Below the pieces are notes generated by a model. That model was not told where the DNA came from, did no database searches, and saw nothing but the letters and a program-made list of their open reading frames with translations. From Brevibacterium sediminis (lineage in GTDB: Bacteria > Actinomycetota > Actinomycetes > Actinomycetales > Brevibacteriaceae): a stretch of 64,000 nucleotides of DNA. Positions 18,147 through 34,934 of the stretch are shown one piece after another. Each line of letters opens with the position of its first letter. Positions within the stretch are counted from its first letter, which is position 1. Where the stretch lies: positions 682,001-746,000 of the forward strand of contig NZ_JABKDD010000001.1 of the NCBI RefSeq assembly GCF_013623905.1, written 5' to 3'. The translations under genes and the position numbers were made by a program.

Positions 18147-18156
18147 CTCCTCGTTG

Positions 18157-18244
18157 TGCGCGAAGGGGGACTTGAACCCCCACGCCCGATAAGTTGGGCA
18201 CTAGCACCTCAAGCTAGCGCGTCTACCAATTCCGCCACTCGCGC
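18157..18244 (-). tRNA. tRNA-Leu (anticodon GAG)
   Basis: 88 bases, a class II tRNA. The acceptor stem pairs GCGCGAG with TTCGCGC (one G-U), discriminator A at 18157; D-loop TGGCGGAATTGGTAGACGC; the anticodon stem CTAGC/GCTAG encloses loop TTGAGGT with GAG at positions 34-36; a long variable arm (TGCCCAACTTATCGGGC) and a T-arm GGGGGTTCAAGTCCCCC follow. No CCA is encoded. It would read CUC and CUU codons. Confidence 0.96.
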
Positions 18245-18328: not shown

Positions 18329-19180
18329 TCATTCGAGGTGTGCCACCCGCGAGAGGACGTGCGGTTTGCCGTTCTTCAGGTCGAAGACCGCCGACTCCGC
18401 AGCCTCGTGACGACGCCCGGAGGTCAGCGCATAGCCGACCGTGCCGGGCAGCAGGATCGGCTTCGCGAAGGACACATCCCAGCGGTAGGACTCGAGCCGC
18501 GGATCCATTGCCGAGAACGCCCGGGAGGCGCTGTACATCCCATGGGCGATCTGCCGTGGGAATCCGAATCCCTTCGCGGCCAGACCGTTGAGGTGGATCG
18601 GATTGTAGTCACCGGAGACCTTCGCATAGCGCTGACCGATGATCGGATCCAGACGCCACAGGGCACTGGGCTGCGGCGCCGTGAACTCGAGGTGCGGCAC
18701 CTGTGCCTTCGGCTTGGCTCCGGAGAGCTTCCGCCCCTTGGCCAAGTACGTCGAGACCTCGTCCATCACGGGACGACCGTCGACCTTCGCCTCGAGCCGG
18801 ACCTCGATCGTGGTGCCCTTCGTGTGCTCGAAGGGACCGGCGAGCTCGAGGTGGAAGTCCACAACCTCGCCGAGGCGGGCCTGCGAATGCATATCGACGC
18901 GATTGTGGATGTGGACCATCCCCATCATCGGCAGCGGCACTTCGGGGTCGGCCAACAGCTGCATGCTCAGCGGGAAGCCGAGGATGTGCAGGTAGCCGGG
19001 GTGGACGATATCGTCCAGACCGTGACCGACGACGTGGGCGAAGCCCGCATAGGCGACCGGTTCGAGCGGAATGCTGCGATCGATCGCATGGTCCGGCAGC
19101 TCCGGACCGGTGCGCGGGCCCACCGGCAGGGTCTTGAGCAGGGCACGGGCATAGATGGGAAGCATCGAATCCGCCATCAT
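18329..19180 (-). CDS. htdX: MaoC-type 3-hydroxyacyl-thioester dehydratase (HtdX-like)
   Basis: 283 residues, close to mycobacterial HtdX (about 280). Double hot-dog fold with the hydratase motif in RYAKVSGDYNPIHLNG (Asp and His catalytic) near residue 190, and MGMVHIHNRVDMHSQ in the first half. It would dehydrate (3R)-hydroxyacyl-CoA or -ACP. The start ATG 19180 overlaps the fabG4 stop as ATGA. Last gene of a three-gene operon with the ketoreductase and thiolase, an arrangement matching Rv0241c-Rv0243 of Mycobacterium. Substrate form (CoA or ACP) is not settled by sequence. Confidence 0.88.
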   Translation of the reverse strand: MMADSMLPIYARALLKTLPVGPRTGPELPDHAIDRSIPLEPVAYAGFAHVVGHGLDDIVHPGYLHILGFPLSMQLLADPEVPLPMMGMVHIHNRVDMHSQARLGEVVDFHLELAGPFEHTKGTTIEVRLEAKVDGRPVMDEVSTYLAKGRKLSGAKPKAQVPHLEFTAPQPSALWRLDPIIGQRYAKVSGDYNPIHLNGLAAKGFGFPRQIAHGMYSASRAFSAMDPRLESYRWDVSFAKPILLPGTVGYALTSGRRHEAAESAVFDLKNGKPHVLSRVAHLE

Positions 19181-20529
19181 GCACCCACCATGTTCTGACC
19201 GCAGACACGCAGCGTCTGTCCGTTGATGCCGCGGGCACCGCTGGATGCGAGGAAGCCGATCGCTTCGGCCACATCGACCGGCTGCCCGCCCTGCTGCAGG
19301 CTCGAGAGCCGGCGCGCGACCTGGCGTGTGAGAGTCGGCATCTTCGCGGTCATATCCGTTTCGATGAAGCCGGGTGCCACCGCGTTGATCGCTCCCCCGC
19401 GGGCGGCGAAGTCCTCCGCCGAGGAGGCCGTGAGTCCGATGACGCCGGCCTTCGAGGTCGCATAGTTCGTCTGGCCGCGGTTGCCCGCGATTCCCGAGGT
19501 CGAGGCCAGGGAGACGACCTGGGCGCCGTCGGCGAAGAGTCCTTTCTCCGCCAGGCGCGCATTGATCATCGTCTGCGCGGCGATGTTGACGGCGATGACA
19601 GAATCCCATTTGGCCGCGTCCATGTTCGCCAGCATCTTGTCGCGGGTGATGCCGGCGTTGTGGACGAGGACGTCCACGGGTGCCCCGAGCGCCTCGGCGA
19701 TCTTGTCCGGGGCATCGGCTGCGGTGATGTCGAGCTGCAGCGACTTGCCGCCGATCCGGTTCATCACCTGCGCCAGCGCCTGCCCTGCCTGCGGCATGTC
19801 CACGCCGATGACGTAGGCGCCGTCGCGGGCGAGGTTCTCGGCGATCGCGGCTCCGATTCCACGTGCGGCACCGGTGACCACGGCAGTGCGACCGGCCAGC
19901 GGGCCGGCGTCACCGGTGGACATGAATTCGTCCAGGCTCAGCCGCTGACCGGCGTCCGAAGACACCGTGAGGAACTGGCCGGAGACATAAGCGGACTTGC
20001 CCGAGAGCAGGAACCACAGGGCCGCATTCACCGAGGGTGCGGTGAGGTCGACGCCGTCGAGCAAGATTCCGTTGGCGGTCGAGCCGGCGCGCATCTCGTG
20101 GGCGACGGACCGGGTGAAGCCGGTGATGCCCTGGGCGGTGGCGGCCTGCTCCGGTGTCTGGTTCTGCGCATCCGGTGCCGTCGAGATTGTGATCACTCGA
20201 CCGCAGGTGGCAAGCGAACGCAGGGCGGCGCCGATTTCGAGCACGACCGGTGACAGGTCAGCCGGGGACTGCGCATCGTCGAGGACGGCGATGACGGCCC
20301 GCAGCTTCTCACCGGTCTGTGCGTTGCGGCGGACCTCAAGTCCGTTCTCCAGCAGCTGATCGGCCAGCCCCTGGGCCCCGGGACCGGTGCCGAGGACGAG
20401 GACCGGCTTGTTCTCATAGGACGCCGGGGTGGAGCCGAAGCGATTGAGTTCGACCGGCTGCGGCAGACCGAGGGTTTTGGCCACCTGCTTCAGCGGTCCG
20501 TTGACGAGGGAGAGATAGGTGTCTTTCAT
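19177..20529 (-). CDS. fabG4: High-molecular-weight 3-oxoacyl-thioester reductase (FabG4-like)
   Basis: 450 residues, the size of HMwFabG proteins. The N-terminal half (about 1-200) is a flavodoxin-like, degenerate Rossmann domain beginning YLSLVNGPLKQVAKTLGLPQ. The C-terminal half is a complete SDR: TGAARGIGAA cofactor loop (about 219), HNAGITRD, Ser in VVSLASTSGIAG, and Tyr/Lys in TNYATSKAG; it ends with INGQTLRVCGQNM. It reduces 3-oxoacyl-CoA/ACP with NADH in mycobacteria. ATGA overlap with the thiolase upstream and with htdX downstream shows tight coupling. Confidence 0.93.
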   Translation of the reverse strand: MKDTYLSLVNGPLKQVAKTLGLPQPVELNRFGSTPASYENKPVLVLGTGPGAQGLADQLLENGLEVRRNAQTGEKLRAVIAVLDDAQSPADLSPVVLEIGAALRSLATCGRVITISTAPDAQNQTPEQAATAQGITGFTRSVAHEMRAGSTANGILLDGVDLTAPSVNAALWFLLSGKSAYVSGQFLTVSSDAGQRLSLDEFMSTGDAGPLAGRTAVVTGAARGIGAAIAENLARDGAYVIGVDMPQAGQALAQVMNRIGGKSLQLDITAADAPDKIAEALGAPVDVLVHNAGITRDKMLANMDAAKWDSVIAVNIAAQTMINARLAEKGLFADGAQVVSLASTSGIAGNRGQTNYATSKAGVIGLTASSAEDFAARGGAINAVAPGFIETDMTAKMPTLTRQVARRLSSLQQGGQPVDVAEAIGFLASSGARGINGQTLRVCGQNMVGA

Positions 20530-21815
20530 GCTGCCTCCACAATCGCAGTGAGTCCCTGTCCGCCTGCAGCGCAGATCGAGACCAGGGAGCGCTTCTTGCC
20601 GGTGGTCTTCAGGTGCTTGGCGGTGCTGGCGATGATGCGTCCGCCGGTGGCGGCGAAGGGGTGGCCGGCGGCCAAGCTCGAGCCCAGCGGGTTGAGCTTG
20701 TCGCGGTCGATGGTGCCCAGCGCCGCATCGAGACCGACCTTATCCTTGCAGAACTCTTCGGATTCCCAGGCGGCCAGGTGCGAGAGCACGGTGGAGGCGA
20801 ATGCCTCGTGGATCTCGAAGACATCGAAATCATCGAAGGTCAGCCCGTTGCGGGCCAGCAGCCGCGGAACTGCGTAGGCAGGGGCCATGAGCAGACCTTC
20901 GTCGCCGTCGACGAAATCGACGGCGGCGGCTTCGGCATCGACGAGGCGCGCCAACGGGGTGAAGCCGTGCTCGTCTGCCCAATCCTCACTGCCCAACAGC
21001 ACCGAGGAGGCGCCGTCGGTCAGCGGAGTCGAGTTGCCGGCGGTCATGGTCGCCTCGGTGGCGAGCTTCCTGCCGAAGACGGGGTTGAGCTTCGCCAGGG
21101 ATTCCACGGTCGAGTCGGCACGCATGTTCGTATCGCGGCTGACCCCGAGGTACGGGGTGGTGAGGTCATCGAAGAAGCCGGATTCCCATGCCGCGGCGAG
21201 GTTCTTGTGGGAGGCCACGGCCAGTTCGTCCTGGGCCTGTCGGCTGATGCCCCAGGCGGCGGTGGTGATCGCCTGATGCTCGCCCATGCTCAAGCCCGTG
21301 CGCGGTTCGCCCGTGCTCGGAGCCTGCGGTGCGAGGTAGGCGGGGCGGATCTGGGAGGCGATCTTCGCCTTCTGCACCATCGTCTTCGCACGGGTGAGCT
21401 CGAGGAGGATCTCGCGCATCGAATCGTTGATGACGATCGGAGCGTCGGACGTCGAATCCACGCCCGAGGCGATTCCGGATTCGATCTGCCCGGCATTGAT
21501 CTTGTTGTTGAGGCTGACCACGGCTTCGAGGCCGGTGGCGCAGGCCTGACCGAGATCGAAGGCGGGGGTCGTCGGTGCCAGGGCGGAGCCGAGCACGGCT
21601 TCCCGGGTGAGGTTGAAGTCCTTCGAATGCTTGAGGACTGCACCTCCGGCGACCTCGCCGATGTTCTCTCCGGCCAGTCCGAAGCGGGCAACGAGCCCGT
21701 CGATGGCCGAGGTGAGCATATCGAGGTTCGTGGCCTTCGAGTACTGCTTGTTCGAGCGGGCGAAGGGAATTCGGTTGCCGCCGAGGATGACGGCGCGGTT
21801 GTTGGGAGCGGACAT
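20526..21815 (-). CDS. fadA2: Acetyl-CoA C-acyltransferase (FadA2-like thiolase)
   Basis: 429 residues. Thiolase landmarks: nucleophilic Cys in DLGQACATGLEAV (about 95), NPLGSSLAAGHPFAATGGR (His) and SICAAGGQG (second Cys) near the C-terminus. Catalyses condensation or thiolysis of 3-oxoacyl-CoA. I chose ATG 21815 because GGAGG is five bases upstream; a GTG two codons earlier overlaps the Shine-Dalgarno sequence. First gene of the operon thiolase-fabG4-htdX and divergent from tetR across a TetR-type operator, so it is probably controlled by that repressor. Confidence 0.92.
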   Translation of the reverse strand: MSAPNNRAVILGGNRIPFARSNKQYSKATNLDMLTSAIDGLVARFGLAGENIGEVAGGAVLKHSKDFNLTREAVLGSALAPTTPAFDLGQACATGLEAVVSLNNKINAGQIESGIASGVDSTSDAPIVINDSMREILLELTRAKTMVQKAKIASQIRPAYLAPQAPSTGEPRTGLSMGEHQAITTAAWGISRQAQDELAVASHKNLAAAWESGFFDDLTTPYLGVSRDTNMRADSTVESLAKLNPVFGRKLATEATMTAGNSTPLTDGASSVLLGSEDWADEHGFTPLARLVDAEAAAVDFVDGDEGLLMAPAYAVPRLLARNGLTFDDFDVFEIHEAFASTVLSHLAAWESEEFCKDKVGLDAALGTIDRDKLNPLGSSLAAGHPFAATGGRIIASTAKHLKTTGKKRSLVSICAAGGQGLTAIVEAA

Positions 21816-21845
21816 GTGCACCTCCGAGTGGTTGATTTAGCCGAT

Positions 21846-21870
21846 ACCGACAGTACCTGATACTGTCGGT
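21846..21870. promoter_or_regulatory. TetR-family operator between tetR and thiolase operon
   Basis: Perfect 10-bp inverted repeat ACCGACAGTA (21846-21855) and TACTGTCGGT (21861-21870) with spacer CCTGA. The right arm contains TACTGT, a -10-like box seven bases before the tetR ATG, so bound protein would block the tetR promoter. On the other strand the operator lies 31 bases upstream of the thiolase start. Size and symmetry fit a TetR dimer site. Confidence 0.8.
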
Positions 21871-21873
21871 TAC

Positions 21874-22485
21874 ATGAAATCGATCACAGACGGTCGCTCG
21901 ACGAGATGGCAGAAGCATCGCGATGAGCGTCGTCGCGAACTTCTGCGTTCCGTGCGGCTCGTCGTCGACGAGTACGGCGACGATATGTCGATGGAGCAGA
22001 TCTCTGACGCGACCGGGACGTCGAAGTCGGTGCTCTACCGATACTTCACCGACCGGGCAGGTCTGCAGGCGGCCATGGGTGAATGGGCGATGGGCGTCAT
22101 CGTCCGGTCTCTCGACGAGGCCGCGGCCGCCTCGGCGAAGGGCGAGGGCTCAGCCGCGGCGCAGGAGTCCCTGGCCGCGATGATCCGCGCATTCGTCACG
22201 CTCGCCGCGAATTCTCCGAACGTGTATCGCTTCTGCGACACCGCGGTCAACCGGTTCGCGCCCGAGGAGACCGGCGGTTTCTTCAATTCCATTGCCGGGC
22301 AGCTGGCCGAACGCCTCGGGCTGAGCGGCGAACAGGCTCGGCTGTGGTCGGCCGGAGCGATCGGTTTCGTCCGCGCCGCCACCGAGACGTGGCTGTCCCG
22401 ACCGGACCGGCCCGAGGAATTCGCCACCACCATCACCCATTGGCTCTGGGCAACCCTGCCCGAACAACGAGGAGTAGAACAATGA
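21874..22485 (+). CDS. TetR/AcrR family transcriptional regulator
   Basis: 203 residues. Helix-turn-helix at about 27-66 (MSMEQISDATGTSKSVLYRYFTD), then an all-helical ligand-binding domain. It probably senses an acyl-CoA and represses its own gene and the divergent thiolase-fabG4-htdX operon through the inverted repeat just upstream; this is inferred from position. -10-like TACTGT ends seven bases before ATG 21874 and there is no Shine-Dalgarno sequence, so the mRNA is probably leaderless. Its stop overlaps the start of the acyl-CoA oxidase-like gene (ATGA). Confidence 0.9.
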   Translation: MKSITDGRSTRWQKHRDERRRELLRSVRLVVDEYGDDMSMEQISDATGTSKSVLYRYFTDRAGLQAAMGEWAMGVIVRSLDEAAAASAKGEGSAAAQESLAAMIRAFVTLAANSPNVYRFCDTAVNRFAPEETGGFFNSIAGQLAERLGLSGEQARLWSAGAIGFVRAATETWLSRPDRPEEFATTITHWLWATLPEQRGVEQ

Positions 22486-24521
22486 AGCTGTCTCTTGACC
22501 CGAAAGCCATCAACGACGTCCTCGACGGACATTGGGCAGAAGCTCGCCGACGCGGGCGGACTCTGGCCGAAGAGCCGTCGACCCATGACGATCCGGCCGA
22601 TGATCTCGACACCGCACGAGCGAAGACCCTAGACGGGGTCATGATGATGGCCGAGACCGGGCTGCCGATGACCGGGCTGTCACCGGAGATGGGCGGAAAG
22701 AACGAACACGCAACGAACGTCGCCGGGTTCGAAGAGACCGTCACGGCCAACCCGAGCCTGCAGATCAAAGCCGGCGTCCAGTTCGGACTCTTCGGCGGAG
22801 CGATCCTCCATCTGGGAGACAAGGAGCAGCATCAGAAGTGGCTGCTCGACGCTCAGTCCGGCCGTCTGCTGGGTTCGTTCGCGATGACGGAGATCGGGCA
22901 CGGCTCCGATGTGGCGAACGTGGCGACCACCGCCACCTACGATGAGGCGACCGAAGAGTTCGTCATCGAGACCCCTTTCCGGGCCGCAACGAAGGAGTAC
23001 ATCGGCAACGCCGCCCGCGATGCCCGGGCCGCCGTCGTCTTCGCTCAGCTCATCACCAAAGGTGTCAAGCACGGGGTGCATGCCTTCTTCGTGCCCGTCC
23101 GCGACGAGGCCGGTGAGCCGATGCCGGGAGTCTCGATCGAAGACGACGGCTACAAGGGCGGGCTCAAGGGAGTCGACAATGGTCGCCTCGCCTTCGACTC
23201 CGTGCGGATCCCACGCACCAACCTGCTCAATCGCTACGGAGACGTCACCGCCGACGGCACGTACTCCTCCCCCATCGAATCGCCGGGACGCCGCTTCTTC
23301 ACGATGCTCGGCACCCTGGTCCAGGGTCGTGTTTCGCTCGACGGCGCCTCAGTGGTCGCATCGAAGATCGCCCTCGACATCGCCGTGCGCTACGGACTCG
23401 AGCGCAAGCAGTTCACGGCCGGCGATGACTTCGCCGAGACGACTCTGCTCGACTACGGCCAGCATCAGCGTCGCCTCATGCCGGCCCTCGCCGCCGTCTA
23501 CGCCTCGGCGTTCGCGCACGAGAAGCTGCTGACCTCCTTCGAAGAGGTCTTCGCCGGAGCCGATGACTCCGAGGAGAACCGGGCTCTGCTCGAGACCCGG
23601 GCGGCTGCGTTCAAGGCCGACTCGACCTGGATGGCGCTCGACGTCATCCAGGAATGCCGTGAGGCCTGCGGCGGTGCCGGATTCATGGCGGAGAACCGCC
23701 TCGTCGGGCTGCGCGCCGACCTCGACGTCTACGTCACCTTCGAAGGCGACAACACGGTGCTGCTGCAGCTCGTGGCCAAGCGCCTCCTCGGCGACTATGC
23801 CAAGGAATTCGCGAACCTCGACGTCGGCGGAGCCGCCCGCTTCATCGGCACCCAGGCCGCCGAACATACGCTCTACCGCACCGGTCTGGCCAATGCCGGA
23901 CGGGCGATCTCGGATGCGCTGACCCCGAACCTCGGCGACAAGCGGATCAGGTCGGGACGCCTGCAGCGGACACTGCTCGAAACGCGACTGGAGGTCATGG
24001 TCGCCGGAGTCGCTCAGGCACTGCGACCTGCGACGAAGATGCCGGCCGCGCAGGCGGCCGATCTGTTCAACGTCCACCAGCATGAGCTCATCGAGATGGC
24101 ACGCGCCTATGTCGAGCTCGAGAAGTGGAAGGCGCTGGACGAGAAGATGAAGGAGCAGACCGACGCCGATCAGGCCAAGGCCTTCCGTCGTCTGCGTGAC
24201 ACCTACGGTCTCGGACTGATCGAGAAGCACATGGCCTGGCACCTCATGTACGGTCGCCTGCCGATGTCGCGTGCACGCCAGATCAACGAGACGCTGAACC
24301 GTCTGTGCAAGAAGCTTGCCGCCAATGCCCTCGACCTCGTCGAAGCATTCGGCTACTCGGATGTCCACCGTCGGGCCACCATCGCCTCCGGCGTCGAAGC
24401 CGAGCGTCAGGCAGAGGCCGCCGACTACTACCGTCGGGCGCGGGCTCGTCAGGACTTCCCGGTCGACGAGAAGCAGCTGCGCAAGGCCGCGAAGAAGAAG
24501 GCGAAGGCCGCCGCACGGTGA
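22482..24521 (+). CDS. Acyl-CoA dehydrogenase/oxidase-family flavoprotein
   Basis: 679 residues, longer than ordinary acyl-CoA dehydrogenases (about 380-610). FAD-binding signatures: SFAMTEIGHGSDVANVAT (about 130-147), CREACGGAGFMAENR and TFEGDNTVLLQLVAKRLL (about 390-430, Glu in the position of the oxidase base). A C-terminal helical domain of about 220 residues resembles acyl-CoA oxidase (ACOX), ending in KKAAKKKAKAAAR-like basic residues. So it could be an oxidase (using O2) or a FadE5-type dehydrogenase. ATG 22482 has GAGGAG upstream and overlaps the tetR stop. It would introduce the double bond that the htdX/fabG4/thiolase set then processes. Confidence 0.88.
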   Translation: MKLSLDPKAINDVLDGHWAEARRRGRTLAEEPSTHDDPADDLDTARAKTLDGVMMMAETGLPMTGLSPEMGGKNEHATNVAGFEETVTANPSLQIKAGVQFGLFGGAILHLGDKEQHQKWLLDAQSGRLLGSFAMTEIGHGSDVANVATTATYDEATEEFVIETPFRAATKEYIGNAARDARAAVVFAQLITKGVKHGVHAFFVPVRDEAGEPMPGVSIEDDGYKGGLKGVDNGRLAFDSVRIPRTNLLNRYGDVTADGTYSSPIESPGRRFFTMLGTLVQGRVSLDGASVVASKIALDIAVRYGLERKQFTAGDDFAETTLLDYGQHQRRLMPALAAVYASAFAHEKLLTSFEEVFAGADDSEENRALLETRAAAFKADSTWMALDVIQECREACGGAGFMAENRLVGLRADLDVYVTFEGDNTVLLQLVAKRLLGDYAKEFANLDVGGAARFIGTQAAEHTLYRTGLANAGRAISDALTPNLGDKRIRSGRLQRTLLETRLEVMVAGVAQALRPATKMPAAQAADLFNVHQHELIEMARAYVELEKWKALDEKMKEQTDADQAKAFRRLRDTYGLGLIEKHMAWHLMYGRLPMSRARQINETLNRLCKKLAANALDLVEAFGYSDVHRRATIASGVEAERQAEAADYYRRARARQDFPVDEKQLRKAAKKKAKAAAR

Positions 24522-24543: not shown

Positions 24544-24589
24544 CACCAGAAGACCCCCGCAGCGAACGGTCTGCGGGGGTCTTCTGGTG
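24544..24589. terminator. Bidirectional terminator
   Basis: Perfect 19-bp stem: CACCAGAAGACCCCCGCAG (24544-24562) pairs with CTGCGGGGGTCTTCTGGTG (24571-24589), loop CGAACGGT. It separates the convergent acyl-CoA oxidase-like gene and metX. Confidence 0.88.
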
Positions 24590-32320: not shown

Positions 32321-33080
32321 GGCTGATCACCTGCCGCAGCTGTCTGATCGTCGACCACCGAGGATCGTCGTCCGTGCCCGTGGCCGGATCTGTGCCCAGA
32401 TCCGTTGTCGGGGCCTTGGACGCTCCGCCGTCTGCCACCACTTCCAGCGTCCCCGCGGGGACGCTGGCGGGAGTTCCTGACGGTCCCGGCAGCAGGAACC
32501 GGTGGGTTCCCGTCTGTGAACGAGCGCGGACGAGGCAGGACTGCAGACGGCCGTGACCGTGTTCGGCACCCGACCAGCGGGTGTCGGTGATCTCGATCTG
32601 CTCCGTACTGCCGGAAAGAGGTCGGAGGCTGATGAGGCTCATTCGTCGTTCACGGATCTTCGCCAGGAGTCGGGCCCGTTCCGAAGCACTCGGGGCGAAG
32701 CCGGGGTCGACGAGGATGATGTCGAAGGATTCGATGAGGATCGAAGCCACTCGCAGCCAGTCCTCACCAGGGGTCGCGAGGTTGACGAAATGGTCGAGAT
32801 CGACACCGAGGTCGGCGATCGAGGACACGGACGGTTCGCCGAGCCCGATGCCGGCACACCACTTCTGCTCCCGGGTCGCCGCAGCGATCGTCGCCAGGCC
32901 GCAGCTCAGCGACAGGTCACCGGTGACAGTGACGAGTTCCCCACGCGGCAGACCGCCGCGACGGAACAGCGGAGAGAGCACAGGATCCACCGGATGAGGT
33001 GGGATCTTGTCGAACAGTGCCGCAGCCGTGGAGATCCCCGTCTCCCGACTGAGCTGTTCGATGACCGGTGCTGTTGACAT
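32310..33080 (-). CDS. imuA: ImuA' RecA-like mutasome accessory protein
   Basis: 256 residues. RecA-fold ImuA': LSPLFRRGGLPRGELVTVTG with a degenerate P-loop (no GKS/T), KWCAGIGLGEPSVSSIADLG, and FDIILVDPGFAPS in the Walker B position. It helps ImuB and DnaE2 in damage-induced mutagenesis. I chose ATG 33080 because the -10 box GATAAT ends seven bases before it; the ATG at 33089 would lie inside the promoter. The C-terminal linker carries one copy of the GTCCCCGCGGGGAC palindrome, encoding VPAGT. Start of the imuA-imuB-dnaE2 operon. Confidence 0.87.
   Translation of the reverse strand: MSTAPVIEQLSRETGISTAAALFDKIPPHPVDPVLSPLFRRGGLPRGELVTVTGDLSLSCGLATIAAATREQKWCAGIGLGEPSVSSIADLGVDLDHFVNLATPGEDWLRVASILIESFDIILVDPGFAPSASERARLLAKIRERRMSLISLRPLSGSTEQIEITDTRWSGAEHGHGRLQSCLVRARSQTGTHRFLLPGPSGTPASVPAGTLEVVADGGASKAPTTDLGTDPATGTDDDPRWSTIRQLRQVISHVG
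32444..32467. repeat. Palindromic element copy 1, inside imuA
   Basis: A perfect 24-base palindrome, core GCGTCCCCGCGGGGACGC flanked by CCA and TGG. It lies in the coding sequence of the C-terminal linker and reads Val-Pro-Ala-Gly-Thr in frame. One of six related sites in the window. Confidence 0.8.
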
Positions 33081-33119: not shown

Positions 33120-34934
33120 TCAGACAACAGCTTTGCTTTCCCGGGCGTGTCGCCATTCGGCTTCGAACATCCATGCGATACAGAGGCCGAGGTCAAAGCC
33201 GTAACCGCCGCCGACAGTGCCGGGATCGGCCGCTTTCGTGATCTGCCTGACCTTGGCAACGCGAACCGCCGTGTTGAACATCATCCGTCCCCTCATCCGG
33301 CTTTCCAGAGGAAGCAGCTGGGAGCCGTCGGGCAAGTAGAAGGCAAAGGCGGCGGGACCGCGCATCGCTCCAGCGAAGTCCGCTCCGGTGCGTTCGATGC
33401 GCAGCTGGTATTTGTGCACCACGGTGTGATGTCTGCGACAGAGCAGGATGAGATTGTCCATATCGGTCCTCCCGCCCTGCGACCAGGGGCGGATATGGTG
33501 GGCATCGCATCGCCTGCGGGCGCGACAGCCGGGGAATTGGCAGCAGACATCACGCACACTCAGCGCCATTCGCTGTCGTCTGCTCACCAGACGCTTCGAG
33601 CGCCCGAGCATGAGGACGTCACCTCCGGCATCCTTGATCGCCCCGCTGATCAGCGCCTCACAGCTCAGGCGCTCCGCCGTCGCCGCAGTGATGCCGCCGA
33701 ACCCTTCGATCCGGCAGGTCGTATCCGCGCCTCCGCTCGACGTCCCCGCGGGAACGTTTCCCTCGACTCCTGCCGGACCGTCCGGTTCGCCTTCCGTCCC
33801 CGCGGGGACGCAGACGGCGGTCGGCTTTGCGGGGATGCTGAGCAGAGGGGGCTTGAACGCGGGCGCGGCTTCCATCGTGGCGCCGCTGCGGGTGATCACC
33901 TCTGCGGAGGCATGAACGAGCAGTCGGGCACGATCGGCGTCGATCGAACCCGTGGGCTCGGCACGAGGGAAGGCGTGGATGATCTCCATCAGGCACATGA
34001 CCTGGGAGACCGGCTCATAAGGAGCCTCGTCCGCTTTGCCACCCTCGCCCGCAGCCCCATCCCCATCGGAACCGCCATCATGGACGGGACGTTCGAGAAC
34101 CTGGCGGGCGGCGTCGAGCATCGCGGCGATCTCTGCGGCGTCGTCTTCCTCGAGTTCGATCGTGATCCGGGTCCGACCGGGTGCCACCTGACGCATGCTC
34201 ACACTGTCCTGAGCCAGGTACAGAGGGAACGGGCCGTTGTCGATCTTGTCGGCCAGCTGCTGGTAGTTCTGCGAGATCCGGCTGATCTGGCTGCCGGTGG
34301 CGAGGGTGGCCAGACGCAGCGCCTCATCGTCGCCGATCCGCTCCCCCAGTCGGGTCACTTCCCTCACCTTTGAGAAGCTGATATCACCGCCCGCCAGACT
34401 CTTCTTCACTTTCGGCATGTCCCGCAGAGCCCTCATCACGCGCACATACTCGCGAGCCGTGTGCATGCTCACCGACGCCACATGCATCACCCACTCGGTC
34501 AGGGTCTTCACACCGACCCATTCCGCCCACAATCCCCGCCTCTCGACCTCGTCGATGAGGGTGATGACGCGGGCATGGCAGAAGGAGATGCATGAGATGC
34601 TGCGCCGGATATCCGTCACGATCTGCTCACAGGTGAGGGTGCTGGGGTCCACATCGGCGTCAGCCCCTCCATAGTCCTTCGGATCCACGCTCAATCGCTC
34701 GAGCTCCGCGGTCTCGGCTGCGCGCGGTCGCGTCGATTCCTGTGCAGCCGAACTCGCTCCTGCCTCATCCCACCGAGCCGTGTTCTGCTGTCCCCTGCCC
34801 CACGGTCCCGAGCCTGCCCATGCCTGAGCGGACGGAATTCCGCTCTGGCTTGCCGAGGCCACGGCCGCTTCCCTCACACGTCTTTCCCATTCCATGTCCT
34901 CGCCCCACGGATCGACCTGATCTTCGTCGTGCAT
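33120..34934 (-). CDS. DUF222/HNH endonuclease domain protein (13E12 family)
   Basis: 604 residues. DUF222 helical domain (about 90-330, including ECERIVTDIRRS-like and HVASVSMHTAREYVRVMRAL) followed by a C-terminal HNH nuclease: CCQFPGCRARRRCDAHHIRP, then DNLILLCRRHHTVVH, with Cys and His ligands for zinc. Members are multicopy in actinobacteria and of unknown role. ATG 34934 follows GAGGAGGG. The linker between domains holds two copies of the GTCCCCGCGGGGAC palindrome, both reading VPAGT. Its stop is three bases before the -35 of the SOS promoter. Confidence 0.87.
   Translation of the reverse strand: MHDEDQVDPWGEDMEWERRVREAAVASASQSGIPSAQAWAGSGPWGRGQQNTARWDEAGASSAAQESTRPRAAETAELERLSVDPKDYGGADADVDPSTLTCEQIVTDIRRSISCISFCHARVITLIDEVERRGLWAEWVGVKTLTEWVMHVASVSMHTAREYVRVMRALRDMPKVKKSLAGGDISFSKVREVTRLGERIGDDEALRLATLATGSQISRISQNYQQLADKIDNGPFPLYLAQDSVSMRQVAPGRTRITIELEEDDAAEIAAMLDAARQVLERPVHDGGSDGDGAAGEGGKADEAPYEPVSQVMCLMEIIHAFPRAEPTGSIDADRARLLVHASAEVITRSGATMEAAPAFKPPLLSIPAKPTAVCVPAGTEGEPDGPAGVEGNVPAGTSSGGADTTCRIEGFGGITAATAERLSCEALISGAIKDAGGDVLMLGRSKRLVSRRQRMALSVRDVCCQFPGCRARRRCDAHHIRPWSQGGRTDMDNLILLCRRHHTVVHKYQLRIERTGADFAGAMRGPAAFAFYLPDGSQLLPLESRMRGRMMFNTAVRVAKVRQITKAADPGTVGGGYGFDLGLCIAWMFEAEWRHARESKAVV
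33741..33756. repeat. Palindromic element copy 2, inside the HNH gene
   Basis: CGTCCCCGCGGGAACG, the element core with one mismatch in the right arm. Reads VPAGT in the minus-strand frame of the HNH protein, within a Pro/Gly-rich linker. Confidence 0.65.
33795..33810. repeat. Palindromic element copy 3, inside the HNH gene
   Basis: CGTCCCCGCGGGGACG, perfect 16-base palindrome, 38 bases from copy 2. Reads VPAGT in frame in the same linker. The flank GCAGACGG resembles the right flank of copy 6. Confidence 0.75.

Follow-up and report, generated by a model that had tools for sequence, protein, structure and literature searches.

A conserved palindrome between divergent operons as the probable TetR-type operator of a beta-oxidation gene set in Brevibacterium sediminis

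Introduction

The stretch of Brevibacterium sediminis DNA analyzed here (64,000 nucleotides; hereafter, the window) contains a TetR-family regulator gene and an oxidase gene that diverge from genes for a thiolase, a FabG4-type reductase, and an HtdX-type hydratase, with a palindrome in the gap between them. This arrangement raises the question of whether a single site could govern both gene groups. A sequence-only reading of the locus had proposed one TetR-type operator common to tetR-oxidase and thiolase-fabG4-htdX. Comparisons among genomes lend support to this proposal through conservation of the site, symmetry that is maintained after sequence change, and co-loss with the regulator, and suggest that the neighboring TetR-type repressor very probably binds at the palindrome. 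The analysis covered sequence, synteny, conservation, and co-loss; from these, we infer binding, the direction of control, the ligand, the chain length, and the stereochemistry of the cycle.

Divergent gene organization and enzyme functions

The genes of the locus and the repeat that follows them are (window coordinates):

18329-19195, minus strand: htdX-type MaoC hydratase gene; PF01575; PDB matches to HtdX (4oob/3wew, E 5e-34); start codon uncertain
19177-20529, minus strand: fabG4, 3-oxoacyl reductase of 450 aa; NCBIfam PRK08261, 544 bits (cut-off 410); PDB matches of FabG4 type, E about 1e-99
20526-21815, minus strand: fadA2-type thiolase gene, 429 aa; NCBIfam PRK09268, 720 bits (cut-off 539); PDB match to FadA2 (7xly, E 1e-168)
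21874-22485, plus strand: tetR, TetR-family regulator of 203 aa with an N-terminal DGR..RW..HR motif
22482-24521, plus strand: acox, acyl-CoA oxidase-type flavoenzyme of 679 aa; its ATG overlaps the tetR stop codon (ATGA)
24544-24589, no strand assigned: inverted repeat with a 19-bp stem after acox, a likely terminator closing the tetR-acox operon

The gene names tetR, oxidase, thiolase, fabG4, and htdX, which had been proposed from the letters alone, agree with these domain, family, and PDB matches. The acox product scores over the cut-off for two ACOX C-terminal domains (PF22924, 135 bits; PF01756, 48 bits), and its best PDB matches are acyl-CoA oxidases, mostly peroxisomal (E 1e-67 to 3e-48). 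Acyl-CoA dehydrogenases come next and are at least 30 orders of magnitude weaker (E 4e-18). Furthermore, acox is the only strong match to the ACOX C-alpha1 model in the genome (138.8 bits, compared with 32.7 for the next gene).

The view that these genes form a full beta-oxidation set also holds, as oxidation, hydration, dehydrogenation, and thiolysis are all covered by domain or PDB matches. As the hydratase is of the MaoC type and the dehydrogenase of the FabG type, the cycle is expected to pass through (R)-3-hydroxyacyl-CoA, as it does with peroxisomal MFE-2. The acox product, HtdX, FabG4, and FadA2 probably constitute an (R)-specific beta-oxidation set. The 3HCDH_N model (PF02737) has 13 matches in the genome, five of them strong, so this cassette need not be the sole beta-oxidation route of the genome. 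In addition, a tRNA-Leu (GAG) gene is located directly 3' of htdX on the same strand (window 18156-18244, minus), and co-transcription is possible.

The palindrome in the intergenic gap

The gap extends from the thiolase ATG (21815, minus strand) to the tetR ATG (21874, plus strand) and contains the palindrome:

21846-21870, no strand assigned: predicted operator palindrome, ACCGACAGTA-CCTGA-TACTGTCGGT, an exact 10-5-10 inverted repeat

Both the exact repeat and the gap length of 58 bases between the two divergent gene groups are as the sequence-only reading had given them. In relatives, the symmetry extends to 14-5-14, which corresponds to 21842-21874 here, with 11 of the 14 pairs matching. 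Repeats with perfect 10-bp arms and loops of 0-10 nt account for 38 nested rows in the window. By hand count, these rows represent 12 distinct places, and several of the places resemble terminators. Twelve simulations under a first-order Markov model gave a mean of 2.6 rows of the same class (range 0-6). A random 58-bp gap contained a repeat with perfect 10-bp arms in 25 of 20,000 simulations. The significance of the palindrome lies in its being kept in relatives, rather than in the perfection of its arms. The earlier description of the arms as perfect is true of the sequence here, but perfection itself is not a conserved feature, the exact form being present in 12 of 57 Brevibacterium genomes.

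Conservation in Brevibacterium and Micrococcaceae

Allowing up to three mismatches, the palindrome was matched in 53 of these 57 genomes, although the match in one of them (G069) lies off the locus. Among the 30 Brevibacterium loci with a match that were examined, 28 are the tetR/thl locus. For a broader comparison, 80 named loci were found through the TetR family in Brevibacterium and Micrococcaceae (Arthrobacter relatives). The complete divergent gene order is present in 77 of these loci, and the other three lack at least one gene within the stretch examined. All 80 have the core GTACYTGNTAC ahead of the tetR start codon, at a distance of 10 nt in 78 loci and 9 nt in two. Because 31 of the 80 loci allow one in-frame start codon only, the spacing in those loci is no product of choice. 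Both the spacing and the leaderless prediction given below come from this 80-locus analysis, which located the core without requiring a -10 element or a start codon. The spacer is CCTGA in 77 loci, CTTGA in two, and CCTGC in one.

The arms vary between families. At one and the same place, they resemble ACCGACAGTA/TACTGTCGGT in Brevibacterium and are CGATACCCAGCGTA/TACGCTGGGTATCG in Micrococcaceae. The two groups diverge at positions 4, 5, and 7 of the arm (GACA in Brevibacterium, CAGC in Micrococcaceae), with complementary differences on both arms, such that both versions are palindromic; 25 of the 47 Micrococcaceae loci have a perfect 14-5-14 repeat. This between-family comparison provides good support for an operator. 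Among 68 distinct sites from a larger set of families, pairing at positions 4, 5, 7, 8, and 12 is more frequent than in shuffled data, in a count that ignores relatedness. A tree-based count for positions 4, 5, 7, and 8 found three doubly changed complementary branches, compared with one or two in slid controls. Given so few independent double changes on the TetR tree, the case for an operator was not rested on covariation. When TetR residues were compared with operator positions by mutual information, again ignoring relatedness, residue 54 was linked with position 4, as a lead only.

Regulator loss and other arrangements in the order

Of 248 genomes searched from the order, 199 have a match to the TetR group (E up to 1e-20; the weaker matches may be paralogs). 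For co-loss, we used 22 genomes from this order-wide search that have no regulator match or only a weak one. A strong fadA2 match is present in six of these 22 genomes, and none of the six has the core within about 4.2 kb. In one of the six loci (L214), the thiolase and acox genes are still divergent, the tetR gene between them is gone, the core is gone as well, and acox has a Shine-Dalgarno sequence. Judging from its gene order and letters, L214 has naturally lost both the regulator and the operator. This locus belongs to genome G123, which carries the same family label as L039, and retains what may be a remnant of the right arm and of the beginning of tetR (GGGTATCACGAACC). In the other five loci, fadA2 adjoins fabG4 in another arrangement, and some of these loci have a different TetR gene nearby.

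Among 52 loci from other families of the order, thiolase and acox flank tetR on opposite sides in 41. A strict pattern of core plus leaderless start fits 149 of 169 locus records and does not fit 20, with some genomes counted twice. This pattern prescribes TA, T, and a start codon for the right side, and right-arm invariance in this record set is therefore by construction. Start codons in the 52 loci were chosen partly by a -10 rule, and the leaderless claim is therefore not based on them. Both the 52 loci and the 169 records include L048 and L049, which are TetR paralogs at other loci and were given no weight for the operator. Several loci, L042, L045, L177, and L178 among them, carry two half-similar sites at a distance from each other, seemingly one for each promoter, in contrast to the single shared site of Brevibacterium and Micrococcaceae. 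In L042, L044, L045, L177, and L178, each divergent promoter seems to have a CCTGN-TAC site to itself, and the recognition helix has YRHF in place of YRYF. In L043, the expected leaderless start opens a short, leader-peptide-like ORF with a stop codon that overlaps the tetR ATG (ATGA).

Promoter elements within the arms

Three further elements were assigned in the gap:

21820-21825, minus strand: Shine-Dalgarno sequence GGAGGT of the thiolase gene
21850-21855, minus strand: predicted -10 element of the fadA2 operon, TACTGT in the left arm
21861-21866, plus strand: predicted -10 element of tetR, TACTGT at the start of the right arm, preceded by TGA at 21858-21860; extended -10-like

The placement of the tetR -10 element inside the right arm by the sequence-only reading thus fits an extended -10-like box, and the left arm, read on the minus strand, supplies an identical box that is an addition to it. 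The TAnnnT pattern is retained in both arms among 33 distinct sequences, and positions 1, 2, and 6 of the left arm are invariant. The TG in the spacer fits an extended -10 element for tetR. A sigma-70 scan of the 58-bp gap found no -35/-10 pair, and the promoter reading consequently relies on the conserved extended -10 by itself. The predicted tetR -10 element ends 7 nt upstream of the tetR ATG. With the start codon 7 or 6 nt beyond the hexamer, the tetR mRNA is predicted to be leaderless. Moreover, the asymmetric spacer CCTGA is better conserved than the arms, which suggests that the promoter, besides the operator, constrains the site.

These elements raise the alternative that the symmetry mainly reflects a bidirectional promoter with two facing -10 boxes, without a dedicated repressor. 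The invariance of the TAnnnT boxes over 33 distinct sequences is compatible with it, and one study describes promoters of this kind, bidirectional and with symmetric -10 elements, as common in Escherichia coli (PMC12825309). However, the arm symmetry extends well beyond the -10 boxes, to positions 7-14, as illustrated by the perfect 14-5-14 repeats of Micrococcaceae. The two -10 boxes also place the predicted divergent start sites about 31 bp apart, whereas that study gives a usual distance of 18 bp (or 10 or 23 bp). Finally, the core is missing from the six loci that do not have this tetR at the junction. A promoter without a repressor is thus quite unlikely as the main source of the symmetry.

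The adjacent TetR-type regulator

An N-terminal helix-turn-helix domain is present in the regulator (PF00440, TetR_N; 26.5 bits, cut-off 24), and the DGR..RW..HR motif is invariant in the TetR alignment. Close relatives of the TetR with species names come from B. permense, B. iodinum, and B. linens and share 98% identity with it. An AlphaFold2 model (pLDDT 85.9) has nine helices and the all-helical TetR fold. The nearest structures to this model are an uncharacterized Rhodococcus TetR (Z 16.9) and KstR (Z up to 16.8; 5cxg, Z 16.8, rmsd 2.9 over 178 residues), followed by B. subtilis FadR with stearoyl-CoA (Z 14.8), Thermus thermophilus FadR with lauroyl-CoA (Z 14.3), and DNA-bound FasR (Z 13.4). 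Helical folds readily yield middling Z scores, and likeness in the TetR fold is a weak guide to the ligand. The resemblance of the model to acyl-CoA-responsive regulators makes an acyl-CoA ligand likely, and release of TetR by acyl-CoA is accordingly a likely, model-based prediction.

The likeness to FasR bears on the direction of control, since the TetR might activate the lipid operon in a FasR-like manner rather than repress it. FasR provides the nearest matches of known function (the best named NCBIfam model, and PDB 6o6n), and it is an activator (PMC7382501). The family match has 39.1 bits against a cut-off of 330 and is thus well below the level of a FasR equivalog. Against activation, both predicted -10 boxes lie under the site, and a protein bound at such a position blocks polymerase; furthermore, the rule based on a distance of less than 200 bp from the divergent gene gave repression in five of five tested Streptomyces cases (PMC3511530). 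We consider an activating role very unlikely.

Search for further sites

In the genome of origin (G000, 4.17 Mb), the palindrome with up to three mismatches matches one place, and the reversed control matches none. A looser pattern gave 53 forward matches in 10 genomes (5, 2, 3, 2, 10, 5, 4, 7, 5, and 10) compared with 106 for the reversed control (11, 9, 10, 7, 10, 12, 5, 11, 16, and 15). The palindrome had been put forward as a precise search key for other regulon members, and this expectation found no support, given one match in the own genome and a looser pattern at or below the control. Among the 57 Brevibacterium genomes, G060, G063, and G065 each have one isolated extra match, and G069 has the off-locus look-alike only. 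The extra match in G060 lies inside a permease-like reading frame (FecCD-type by eye). The switch appears to be local and confined to a single locus, and sites of another form are conceivable.

These results also bear on whether the palindrome serves another regulator, either global or a second TetR, with the adjacent TetR as a bystander. Further TetR genes occur nearby in some distant families, as this alternative would need. A single site per genome speaks against a global regulator, and the site accompanies the TetR throughout Brevibacterium and Micrococcaceae and disappears with it, which makes a bystander role highly unlikely. A chance palindrome or an RNA hairpin (terminator or attenuator) may be dismissed as having next to no probability, despite the 12 places with perfect 10-bp arms in the window, because position and sequence are kept across the genus, other letters occupy the same spot in another family, and the predicted start sites leave the palindrome untranscribed in both directions.

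A separate palindrome, GTCCCCGCGGGGAC, has 23 copies in the genome, compared with none for its reversed control. Exact cores are found in the window at 32447, 33794, 37219, 50076, and 50719, with a weaker copy at 33740. Several of the window copies are inside genes (a 259-aa ORF and genes for a DUF222-HNH protein and an RNase H protein), and one seems to be intergenic. The copies within genes encode VPAGT in apparent linker regions. This sequence has the look of a palindromic element that is dispersed through the genome and also invades coding sequences.

Proposed mechanism

The explanation that we favor is that the palindrome is the operator of the adjacent TetR, that both promoters are repressed, that acyl-CoA causes release, and that the (R)-specific set is co-induced; as a whole, we regard it as highly likely. 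One TetR dimer would bind the palindrome, or perhaps two, as two dimers are conceivable given that the symmetry in relatives spans 33 bp. As the -10 boxes of the two divergent promoters lie within the arms, bound TetR would cover both boxes and block RNA polymerase in both directions. Rightward, this would shut off tetR-acox (autorepression, with a leaderless mRNA), and leftward, fadA2-fabG4-htdX. Such an arrangement has precedents in the Streptomyces TetR regulators whose divergent neighbor lies within 200 bp (PMC3511530) and in AcrR, which is described as repressing both RNAs of its own bidirectional promoter (PMC12825309). Long-chain acyl-CoA, once it builds up, would bind TetR, which would leave the DNA; for FasR, DNA binding is disrupted by acyl-CoAs of C16 or longer (PMC7382501). 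The acox-type enzyme, HtdX, FabG4, and FadA2 would be made together for an (R)-specific beta-oxidation cycle, and consumption of acyl-CoA would reset the switch.

Comparison with known systems

The regulatory layout is that of a textbook divergent TetR autorepressor, and the regulator seems to be widespread and apparently unstudied. Our literature search, for which subscription journals were mostly beyond reach, found no paper on this TetR, and novelty is unproven thereby. As a tentative broader reading, which we hold to be plausible but short of probable, the locus may represent an order-wide, dedicated beta-oxidation switch with a TetR that is unnamed in the literature searched, in which a peroxisome-type, (R)-specific cassette is controlled from one element that serves as the operator, supplies both -10 boxes, and launches a leaderless repressor mRNA. 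In this reading, the arms and the recognition helix (residue 54/position 4) would have co-drifted between families around an unchanging GTA-CYTGN-TAC core. A widespread TetR group may now be given a target, an operator, and a plausible class of ligand, and may be tied to a complete fatty-acid breakdown set. How Brevibacterium and Arthrobacter relatives control their use of lipids thereby becomes directly testable, and a compact, possibly acyl-CoA-responsive switch is on offer for engineering.

Divergent TetR autorepressors such as TetR/TetA, AcrR/AcrAB, EthR, and the Streptomyces SCO4099 and SCO7222 share with this locus a gap of less than 200 bp (58 bp here) and an operator within it (PMC3511530 and PMC12825309). 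As in those systems, repression of both sides is predicted here, and the conserved palindrome overlaps both predicted promoters. Unlike them, this locus has a beta-oxidation target, both predicted -10 elements in the arms, a predicted leaderless tetR, and the ATGA overlap with acox. FasR of Mycobacterium tuberculosis is the best named family model and the best PDB sequence match, and it has a similar fold and is linked to lipid genes. It differs in being an activator of the fas-acpS synthesis operon, on which it acts through three inverted repeats (PMC7382501). The FadR proteins of Bacillus and Thermus and KstR are similar in fold and in having degradation genes as targets, and their solved structures hold acyl-CoA or steroid-CoA. 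They share about 13-17% identity with the TetR over the structural alignment, and the comparison covered fold, targets, and ligands.

For the three minus-strand enzymes, the closest solved relatives are FadA2, FabG4-type, and HtdX structures. In M. tuberculosis, the genes fadA2-fabG4-htdX are Rv0243, Rv0242c, and Rv0241c. The mycobacterial locus pairs them with fadE5 rather than with an ACOX-type enzyme and is not known to contain this TetR. Peroxisomal beta-oxidation consists of acyl-CoA oxidase, MFE-2, and thiolase. The locus described here resembles it in an ACOX-type first enzyme, a MaoC-type hydratase with an SDR dehydrogenase, and a thiolase, and differs in having separate bacterial genes in two divergent operons, with oxidase activity and (R)-stereochemistry as predicted properties.
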